A DNA stretch of 64,000 nt, from positions 3,181,304 through 3,245,303 of the forward strand of contig KB906767.1 in NCBI GenBank assembly GCA_000381625.1, given 5' to 3'. The translations under genes were made by a program, and so were the position numbers. Positions 5,000 through 47,006 of this stretch are shown here, piece after piece (position 1 is the stretch's first letter; each line of letters begins with the position of its first letter). The DNA comes from Bryobacterales bacterium KBS 96 (GTDB lineage Bacteria; Acidobacteriota; Terriglobia; Bryobacterales; Bryobacteraceae). The notes under the pieces are model-generated. The model saw nothing but the letters and a program-made list of their open reading frames with translations. It searched no databases and was not told the origin of the DNA.

Positions 5000-5038
5000 T
5001 CGCAGGTGGATCACAGAATCGGATGAAGACGCCTTTCG

Positions 5039-5112
5039 ACCCGCGCACTCACGTGCGGCGGCTCTGTTTCCGGGTAACTCGACACGGAGCCGCCTTGCGT
5101 CAGCAAGCGGGT
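5039..5112 (+). repeat. Cloverleaf-forming dispersed repeat, copy A
   Basis: A closing stem ACCCGC (5039-5044)/GCGGGT (5107-5112) encloses three hairpins: CGCAC-tcac-GTGCG (5044-5057), a long arm opened by GGCGGCTCTGT and closed by ACGGAGCCGCC, and CTTGC-gtca-GCAAG. The same architecture occurs at 43919-43993 (inverted) and 45305-45379. It lies between htpX and the Oar-like receptor gene. Confidence 0.7.
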
Positions 5113-5130
5113 TTCCGAAGGCCGGGTAAC

Positions 5131-5160
5131 GCCGGTTGCCTGCACCGAACCGCGAAGCGG
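5131..5160 (-). repeat. Short dispersed repeat (TCGCGGTTCGGTGCAGG type), copy 1
   Basis: Read on the minus strand this is CGCTTCGCGGTTCGGTGCAG followed by GCAACCGGCG. It matches the units at 45171-45204, 45243-45264 and 63466-63500. As at 45171-45264, it sits next to a cloverleaf repeat copy, which suggests the two families travel or accumulate together. Confidence 0.5.
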
Positions 5161-5189
5161 AGGTCTTCCATCGAGCTACCGGCAACCAC

Positions 5190-43848: not shown

Positions 43849-43918
43849 CTCAACCCTTCAGGAGCTTGCCGAAAAAGGCCAAAACCGCTCGGCTGGAAGC
43901 GGCTGCGGGGTGATCCGG

Positions 43919-43993
43919 ACCCGCTCGCTGACGCGATGCGGCTCTGAGTGGAGGCAACTTGCAATCGGAGCCGCCGCACACAGGTGCGCGGGT
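43919..43993 (-). repeat. Cloverleaf-forming dispersed repeat, copy B
   Basis: Inverted relative to copies A and C. Read on the minus strand: closing stem ACCCGC/GCGGGT, hairpin CGCAC-ctgt-GTGCG, a long arm GGCGGCTC...GAGCCGC, and hairpin TCGC-gtca-GCGA where copies A and C have TTGC-gtca-GCAA, a compensatory T-A to C-G change. It lies between the convergent oxidoreductase and isocitrate dehydrogenase genes. Confidence 0.68.
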
Positions 43994-44051
43994 TGCTCGA
44001 CTGCCCGGCCCCGCTTGCGCCCAAAGGGAACCGTTCGGTTTCAATTGTTTT

Positions 44052-45065: not shown

Positions 45066-45170
45066 ATCCCGATTGTAAGGGGCGCATGGCCCCGAATCGG
45101 CCCAGAGGCAGTCCGCCCGGTGAGGACATCCGCTCCGTTGAAGACGCCGGTAAAGACGTCCGCTCCTTGA

Positions 45171-45264
45171 CAGTCGCGGTTCGGTGCAGGTAATCGGGCG
45201 TCTTCTCAATTTGGGTGGCCCGCAGGGCCATGAGTACTCCCTCACGGTCGCGGTTCGGTGCGGG
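45171..45264 (+). repeat. Short dispersed repeat (TCGCGGTTCGGTGC type), two units
   Basis: Units begin at 45171 (CAGTCGCGGTTCGGTGCAGG) and 45243 (CACGGTCGCGGTTCGGTGCG). The first unit, through TGAGTACTCC at 45240, aligns over about 65 bases with 63466-63530. A single inverted copy is at 5131-5160. The unit is G-rich and contains no coding signal. Confidence 0.55.
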
Positions 45265-45304: not shown

Positions 45305-45379
45305 AACCCGCACTCACGTGCGGCGGCTCCGTTTGGAGTTTGCCTCCACTCAGAGCCGCCTTGCGTCAGCAAGCGGGTT
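45305..45379 (+). repeat. Cloverleaf-forming dispersed repeat, copy C
   Basis: Closing stem AACCCGC (45305-45311)/GCGGGTT (45373-45379); hairpin CGCAC-tcac-GTGCG; a long arm GGCGGCTC/GAGCCGCC whose tip has an inner TGGAG-tttgc-CTCCA stem; hairpin CTTGC-gtca-GCAAG. The best preserved of the three copies. Direct repeats CCGAACAAC flank it. It lies about 75 bases upstream of purH. Confidence 0.7.
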
Positions 45380-45452
45380 CGGATAGCCGAACAACTTACG
45401 CGCTGACGGCGCGACGTACGCCGCGCTTTTGCGCTTTGCCAAAATGGAACTA

Positions 45453-47006
45453 ATGGCTCGTATTCAACGCGCGTTGCTGAGTGTCACTGAAAAATCGGGA
45501 TTGCTGCCGTTTGCGCAGAAGCTGCACGAACTGGGAGTGGAGCTGGTTTCAACCGGCGGCACGGCCAAACTTCTGCGCGATAACGGCCTTCCCGTGCGGG
45601 AAGTCGCCGAGATTACCGGCTTTCCGGAAATGCTTGACGGCCGCGTGAAGACGATTCACCCCCGAATTGCCGGCGGCATCCTGGCGATCCGCGCAAATCG
45701 GGAACATATGCAGTCTCTTGCCACCCATGAGATCCCCGCGTTCGACATGGTGGTGGTGAATCTCTACGCGTTTGAAAAATATGCTTCGAGAAGCGATGTC
45801 ACTCGTGAAGAGCTGATCGAGAATATCGATATCGGCGGTCCCACCATGATTCGAGCCGCGGCCAAGAACTTTCAGGATGTCGCCGTTGTGGTGTCGCCCG
45901 AGCAGTACGCTCCGCTGAGTCGCGAACTCACCGACAACCAGGGCTCGCTCTCGCCATCCACACATTGGCGTCTCGCGCAGAAGGCCTTTGCCCATACCGC
46001 CGCGTACGATGCCGCCGTGGCGGCGCGGCTGGCGCGAATCAATGTGGATGGGCAGACAGCGGATGAGTCGGACTTACTTCCGGAGACGCTGCACATCAAC
46101 GCCGACCGCACGGCCGTTCTCCGGTATGGAGAAAATCCGCATCAGCAGGCTGCGCTGTATAGCTTCCATAACGGCGGCATCGCCGGAGCGAAGCAGCTTC
46201 ACGGCAAGGAACTGTCTTACAACAATCTAGTGGATCTGGACGCCGCGTGGCAATTGGTCCTCGAGTTCAATGCCCCCGCGGCCGCCATCATCAAGCACAC
46301 GAATCCATGCGGCTGCGCCGAACGGGAGACGCTTGCCGAGGCTTACCTCAAAGCGCTCGAAGCCGATCCGGTGTCCGCGTTCGGCGGAGTGCTCGCTTTC
46401 AACCAGGAACTGGATGAAAATACCGCGCAAGAGGTCGGCAAGCTCTTCGTGGAAGCCATTGCGGCGCCTGCGTTCTCGCCGGGCGCGCTGGCCGTTTTGC
46501 AATCTAAAAAGAATTTACGGCTTGTTCTCGTGGACGCCCTGGTTCGCGCGGAAGCAGTCGTAAGGTCGATCGGCGGCGGACTGTTGGCGCAGACACCCGA
46601 TCGGATACCGTTCGATTTTTCAAAAGTTCAGGTGAAAACCGAGCGCGCTCCCACTCCGGAAGAGCAGAGGGCACTCGCATTCGGCTGGAAGATCGCCAAG
46701 CACGTGAAATCCAACGCGATCGTCTACGCGCGGCCGGGCCAGACCATCAGCGTGGGCGCCGGCCAAATGAGCCGCGTCGACAGCGTGAAGGTCGGGGCGA
46801 TGAAAGCGGTGCTTCCGTTGAACGGTACGGTGATTGCATCCGATGCATTCTTTCCATTTCCCGATGGCATCGAAGAAGCCGCCAAGCACGGCATCACGGC
46901 AGTTATTCAGCCGGGCGGCTCCGTAAGAGACGAAGAAGTGATCGCGGCGGCAAACCGGCTCGGGCTGGCTATGGTGTTTACCGGCGTGCGTCACTTCCGG
47001 CATTGA
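45453..47006 (+). CDS. purH: Bifunctional AICAR formyltransferase/IMP cyclohydrolase
   Basis: 517 residues from the ATG at 45453 (MARIQRALLSVTEKSGLLPF); an ATG at 45444 is possible. The N-terminal IMP cyclohydrolase domain (MGS-like, about 1-195) has STGGTAKLLRDNGLPVREVA, GFPEMLDGRVKTIHPRIAGG and NIDIGGPTMIRAAAKNF. The C-terminal AICAR transformylase domain has RYGENPHQQAAL, IKHTNPCGCA (catalytic His/Asn region), DPVSAFGGVLAFNQ and the end VMVFTGVRHFRH-like (LAMVFTGVRHFRH). It carries out the last two steps of purine biosynthesis to IMP. It stands alone here, with no other pur genes. Confidence 0.97.
   Translation: MARIQRALLSVTEKSGLLPFAQKLHELGVELVSTGGTAKLLRDNGLPVREVAEITGFPEMLDGRVKTIHPRIAGGILAIRANREHMQSLATHEIPAFDMVVVNLYAFEKYASRSDVTREELIENIDIGGPTMIRAAAKNFQDVAVVVSPEQYAPLSRELTDNQGSLSPSTHWRLAQKAFAHTAAYDAAVAARLARINVDGQTADESDLLPETLHINADRTAVLRYGENPHQQAALYSFHNGGIAGAKQLHGKELSYNNLVDLDAAWQLVLEFNAPAAAIIKHTNPCGCAERETLAEAYLKALEADPVSAFGGVLAFNQELDENTAQEVGKLFVEAIAAPAFSPGALAVLQSKKNLRLVLVDALVRAEAVVRSIGGGLLAQTPDRIPFDFSKVQVKTERAPTPEEQRALAFGWKIAKHVKSNAIVYARPGQTISVGAGQMSRVDSVKVGAMKAVLPLNGTVIASDAFFPFPDGIEEAAKHGITAVIQPGGSVRDEEVIAAANRLGLAMVFTGVRHFRH

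Follow-up and report, generated by a model that had tools for sequence, protein, structure and literature searches.

The 75–77 nt inverted-repeat element that occurs as three intergenic copies, in both orientations, within the window (the whole 64-kb stretch of DNA analyzed here) belongs to a repeat family whose members are very probably REPINs, moved in trans, now or until recently, by the genome's single class 3 TnpA-Y1 (RAYT-like) transposase. Systems of this kind have already been described, and what is new is the sequence family, its doublet organization and the shared loop motif. An earlier note on this DNA had called the repeat previously unrecognized, which holds for the sequence family but not for the kind, since class 3 TnpA-Y1 structures are on record (PMC6006769).

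The three copies proposed in that note were all recovered with nhmmer and with a covariance model (Table 1). Used as the nhmmer seed, copy 1 retrieved copy 2 at E = 6e-11 and copy 3 at E = 7e-10, and copy 1 itself scored 86.8 bits with the covariance model. None of the copies lies inside the adjoining long ORFs. The AACCCGC heptamer on its own is not enriched (14 observed versus 12.9 expected), so the signal resides in the whole element.

Table 1. Features of the window and of the associated gene; positions are those of the window unless prefixed C1
Feature	Position	Strand	Details
REPIN copy 1 (the finding)	45305..45379	+	two inverted class 3 REP units with a central spacer between them; nhmmer and covariance model
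Copy 1, right REP unit	45351..45379	+	foot CAGA, GCCGCCTTGC, loop GTCA, GCAAGCGGGTT; motif scan, foot statistics
Copy 1, left REP unit	45305..45331	- (read on - strand)	foot CGGA, GCCGCCGCAC, loop GTGA, GTGCGGGTT; motif scan
REPIN copy 2	43918..43994	-	flanking ORFs convergent; covariance model 89.2 bits
REPIN copy 3	5038..5113	+	flanking ORFs convergent; covariance model 87.1 bits
Second-family REP beside copy 1	45230..45258	-	CCGAACCGCGACCGTGAGGGAG...; motif scan
Second-family REP beside copy 1	45156..45184	-	CCGAACCGCGACTGTCAAGGAGCGG; C1:3226463-3226487; motif scan
Second-family REP, degenerate, beside copy 3	5132..5160	+	CACCGAACCGCGA...GTCTTC
Segment absent from G001	5000..5181	.	~182 bp, intergenic; copy 3 and a piece of the second REP family
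P0001 gene	C1:5724446-5725036	-	197 aa / 197 codons; Y1/HUH transposase, single-copy

The anatomy of the element was read from a 36-copy alignment (A1), of which copy 1 is the first row and whose consensus is AACCCGCGCACTnACGTGCGGCGGCTCCGTTTCCAGGTTGCCTCCACTCAGAGCCGCCTTGCGTnAGCAAGCGGGTT. Read inward from the ends, each on its own strand, both halves show the same order of AACCCGC, a small hairpin with loop TnAC, and GGCGGCTC; read outward from the middle, both show a CnGA foot, GCCGC, a stem, the loop GTnA, a stem and GCGGGTT. The plan is thus that of two inverted, slightly unequal REP units separated by a spacer of ∼20 nt, with a CnGA foot in 34 of the 36 copies on each side and a unit loop of the GYNA type. 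The architecture described earlier, a closing AACCCGC/GCGGGTT stem, two small hairpins and a central arm, is indeed present: across the 36 copies, pairing is seen in 93% of cells at the closing ends, 94% and 100% in the two 4-bp hairpins and 98% in the 7-bp central arm, or 94% over all pairs together.

Whether this architecture should be drawn as a cloverleaf is another matter. The fold of copy 1 beats 200 of 200 shuffles on both strands (z = -5.2 and -6.5), but its minimum free energy structure is a long rod, and the closing stem is absent from the RNAalifold consensus. Since the element is an inverted repeat, both strands look alike, and the symmetry of the two inverted hairpins gives rise to the cloverleaf, which is only one of the possible drawings of the element. 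The description ‘tRNA-like’ gained no positive support, while the accompanying statement that the element is not a tRNA agrees with ARAGORN, which finds no tRNA in the window; no Rfam family matches there either, and a tRNA or tRNA-like gene was rejected. Covariation is modest and confined mainly to one pair (UA in 23 copies, CG in 12), and since only this pair shows many double changes, covariation alone is no proof of an RNA.

The host genome (6.69 Mb, Bryobacterales) holds at least 139 copies at E ≤ 0.0075 and at least 143 at E ≤ 0.1 by the covariance model, for which 150 candidates were scored and which gives a lower bound; BLAST returns at least 67 matches. The mean density is about one copy per 47 kb, though the distribution is uneven, with copies occurring singly or in tandem and 15 neighbor distances below 120 nt. 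At C1:280324-280906, about six near-identical doublets form a tandem array with a period of 92. Across 28 loci, 24 of 28 copies are extragenic (an overlap of ≤25 nt with a predicted ORF, the ORFs being chosen by a simple heuristic of our own), whereas 94% of random positions at the same loci fall inside ORFs. The copies show 10–25% divergence, and for that reason the family may be dormant.

Comparison with a genome of the same genus (G001) revealed a difference in presence at one site. There, the segment around copy 3 (Table 1) is missing and the two convergent genes flanking that copy abut, with flanks 86% and 82% identical; this presence/absence rests on a single site, is unpolarized as to insertion or deletion, and involves a segment larger than one element. 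For copy 1 an empty-site comparison is precluded, since G001 synteny ends at ORF 45429–47006, which we read from its sequence as purH, and the region upstream of purH is not syntenic. No relative of the transposase gene described below is detectable in the G001 draft (88% complete), though copies of the element are present, and its class 3 gene may have been lost or left unassembled.

The earlier note had offered, among its candidates, a REP/BIME-like element served by a RAYT-type transposase, and had pointed to a tyrosine (Y1-type) transposase gene as the thing to look for. Such a gene, P0001, was found in this genome with a copy of the element on either side, which strongly supports that proposal. 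It is one of seven Y1_Tnp (PF01797) genes in the genome and sits flush between the copies at C1:5724358-5724434 and C1:5725035-5725111, the upstream of which overlaps its nominal TTG start by two bases. Based on ∼143 copies in 6.69 Mb and seven Y1 genes, we roughly estimate the chance of such flush flanking to be of the order of 1e-5 for the seven genes together, which makes coincidence very unlikely. At the other six Y1_Tnp loci the covariance model finds no element, apart from a single marginal match of 13.8 bits in one of them. We therefore regard P0001, from its sequence and setting, as the probable mobilizing enzyme of the family. The six further Y1_Tnp genes (L031–L036) are unmatched by P0001, and some of them carry short inverted repeats in their flanks, such as CCGGGGACGGAGCACTCATT at L031.

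The P0001 protein carries the motifs NHVH, YWTRHGSTR and YVINGQ, and the class 3 signature (NHVH, W[TA] and Y----Q) is present in its Y1_Tnp domain. Class 3 TnpA-Y1 proteins have been defined by NHVH, W[TA] and YV[VI][AENY]EQ and occur mostly in Planctomycetes, Acidobacteria and Proteobacteria (Quentin et al. 2018, PMC6006769); P0001 agrees with the fuller MEME motif YV[VI][AENY]EQ except for G in place of E. Taken together, the motif signature, the CnGA foot and the taxonomic range all match an assignment of P0001 to class 3 as predicted from sequence. The protein scores 29.2 bits against Pfam Y1_Tnp (cut-off 23). A canonical GTAG REP with a class 2 RAYT is ruled out by the CnGA foot and by a score of 24 bits against NCBIfam REP_Tyr_transpos (cut-off 80), and the evidence also speaks against an IS200/IS605 insertion sequence: no second copy of the gene plus its flanks was found in the genome, the single-copy gene is not repeated along with its ends, and the NCBIfam IS200 score is 27 bits (cut-off 55). 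No solved structure matched profile A2 convincingly; the one putative transposase among the matches, 2f4f, stood at E = 0.53.

Of 257 genomes in the order, 79 encode a relative of P0001 at E ≤ 1e-10. A scan of named genomes with P0001 alone found none, but a scan with alignment A2 did, at roughly 280 loci, mainly in Acidobacteria, Planctomycetes and Proteobacteria, with a few in Chloroflexi and one in a verrucomicrobial bin; identity of P0001 to the relatives found is at most about 48%. At 64 of 78 named class 3 loci, which come from Acidobacteria, Planctomycetes, Proteobacteria and Chloroflexi, a repeat is common to both flanks of the gene (E ≤ 1e-3), compared to 0 of 60 and 0 of 200 control pairs, although a few of the 64 do not look REP-like by eye (e.g. 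L128 and L152). The exact element is far more restricted: among 61 genomes of the family, strong copies are found only in the host genome and in G001. Diverged doublets are seen in two others (G191 and G004), and the REP units on either side of the class 3 gene there are of the type found as doublets at other places in the same genome.

As REPINs, the repeats would be miniature non-autonomous mobile elements, each made of two inverted REP units. By analogy with the IS200/IS605 and TnpA-REP literature, the class 3 enzyme would bind the REP hairpins in single-stranded DNA, and its tyrosine would cut beside the CnGA-footed hairpin, with the foot as guide; the doublet, excised or copied, would then be joined to single-stranded DNA at a different site, in most cases between genes. 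This mechanism is carried over from other TnpA-REP groups, in which the tyrosine cleaves single-stranded REP hairpins and the foot tetranucleotide serves as guide (PMC8266576), and for the present family we infer both the chemistry and any present activity.

The strong folding of both strands and the intergenic placement could also be expected of a transcribed structural element, such as a bidirectional terminator or a stabilizer of mRNA 3′-ends, kept for its function in RNA. The 24 extragenic copies are divided on this point: convergent ORFs flank 5 of them and same-strand ORFs 13, in line with such a role, but 6 lie between divergent ORFs. Tandem arrays, the lack of an Rfam match, slight covariation at mostly one pair, and the presence/absence at an orthologous site also speak against it, and we consider this explanation improbable. 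The RNA processing element suggested earlier gained no positive support. A terminator or stabilizer role could instead come as a side effect of a REP, as is seen in other bacteria.

Slimmer still are the chances that the repeat is a MITE of an ordinary IS200/IS605 or other insertion sequence, moving as a whole element. The inverted-repeat shape and the IS200-like Y1 domain of P0001 would suit a MITE, as would the description of class 3 as a possible intermediate between IS and REPtron (PMC6006769), but the repeats number at least 139 for a single transposase gene, the same doublet is found both alone and in tandem, and no target-site duplication is evident by eye in the copy flanks listed. Dyad symmetry and an average of about one copy per 47 kb might likewise bring to mind a protein-binding cruciform or nucleoid site of non-mobile origin; given that the distribution is uneven and clustered in tandem, that copies flank one transposase gene flush, and that the element forms mosaics with a second REP family, we give this next to no credence. 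REPINs mobilized in trans by P0001 remain the reading that we prefer.

The closest known systems are the class 3 TnpA-Y1 genes, which are flanked by multi-copy structures with a 5′ CnGA foot (PMC6006769) and which resemble the present system in HUH motifs, CnGA-footed flanking structures, high copy number and taxonomic range. Solibacter usitatus Ellin6076 has about 600 class 3 structures and three class 3 genes (PMC6006769), while the gene is single-copy here. The repeat is genus-specific in its sequence, and to class 3 as published the present analysis adds, from sequence, the REPIN doublets and the shared GYNA loop. The REPINs of Pseudomonas fluorescens SBW25 (PMC3116915) are likewise extragenic inverted REP doublets with a spacer, form tandem arrays of nearly identical units, and have a single-copy RAYT beside each family; they differ in having a GTAG rather than a CnGA foot and a class 2 rather than a class 3 transposase. 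The E. coli BIME with its TnpA-REP (class 2.2) is similarly a unit of two inverted, unequal REPs with a REP-flanked Y1 HUH protein, but there the foot is GTAG, the stem is bulged and the protein is of a different class. The TIRYT/TIRtron genes of Acidobacteria (PMC3733652) are likewise Y1 genes with inverted repeats at their flanks, some of them multi-copy, though the repeats there were described as TIRs, part of them carrying GGGGWSAS, a motif that the consensus of our element does not contain.

A second REP family accompanies the first. Its motif is CCGAACCGCGACCGTNAGGGAGCGG, and the 25-base motif CCGAACCGCGACNGTNAGGGAGCGG (≤3 mismatches) occurs at 136 places in the host genome, compared to none for the reversed control. 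Among 100 places listed, 33 are within 200 nt of a first-family copy, where 0.7 would be expected at random. In another genome, a class 3 gene (L144) is flanked by sequence closely similar to the second-family motif, and owing to this likeness the second family was taken as a REP of class 3 type; from its sequence it looks like a class 3 REP family that forms a mosaic with the first. No class 3 gene cognate to it was found in the host genome. A composite array is seen at C1:2701386-2701816, where three doublets at 177-nt spacing have a second-family REP ∼130 nt away.

Class 3 Y1 systems have so far been treated in few genomes and in about one paragraph of the literature that we found. The host genome comes close to a complete example of them: it has a single gene and ∼140 doublets, and a genome of the same genus offers an empty site. 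Pooling of the loci yields a testable recognition motif, the CnGA foot plus the GYNA loop. At 110 loci, the DNA within 300 nt of the class 3 gene shows a 31-fold enrichment of CnGAGCC-N3-9-CGYNAG, compared to only 0.5 to 2.2-fold for three altered motifs; the 31-fold figure is descriptive, since the motif was picked after viewing flanks that are part of the same set. Loops at these loci are mostly GTAA, GTCA, GTGA and GCAA, and feet mostly CCGA, CAGA, CGGA and CTGA, with ACGA in 27. One REP code (CnGA foot, GAGCC, GYNA tetraloop) may be common to class 3 transposases of several phyla, with stems that diverge between genomes, an idea that we put forward tentatively and hold to be possible rather than probable. 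If true, class 3 would have a fixed code, either ancient or spread horizontally, with REPIN doublets as the unit of spread, and might stand between IS200/IS605 elements and the GTAG RAYTs. The system is a practical one in which to ask whether class 3 is a bridge from insertion sequences to domesticated REP transposases. For annotation, it accounts for these intergenic ‘cloverleaves’ by mobile DNA rather than by unknown RNAs.

Two further observations concern the spread of class 3 genes. One relative in the order (G239) has nine class 3 protein matches in a 4.5 Mb draft, while RAYTs are usually single-copy, and its class 3 genes may behave as insertion sequences. Class 3 genes with flanking REPs are also found in named Legionella species (L119, L138 and L150), which suggests that class 3 either has spread horizontally or has a wide range.
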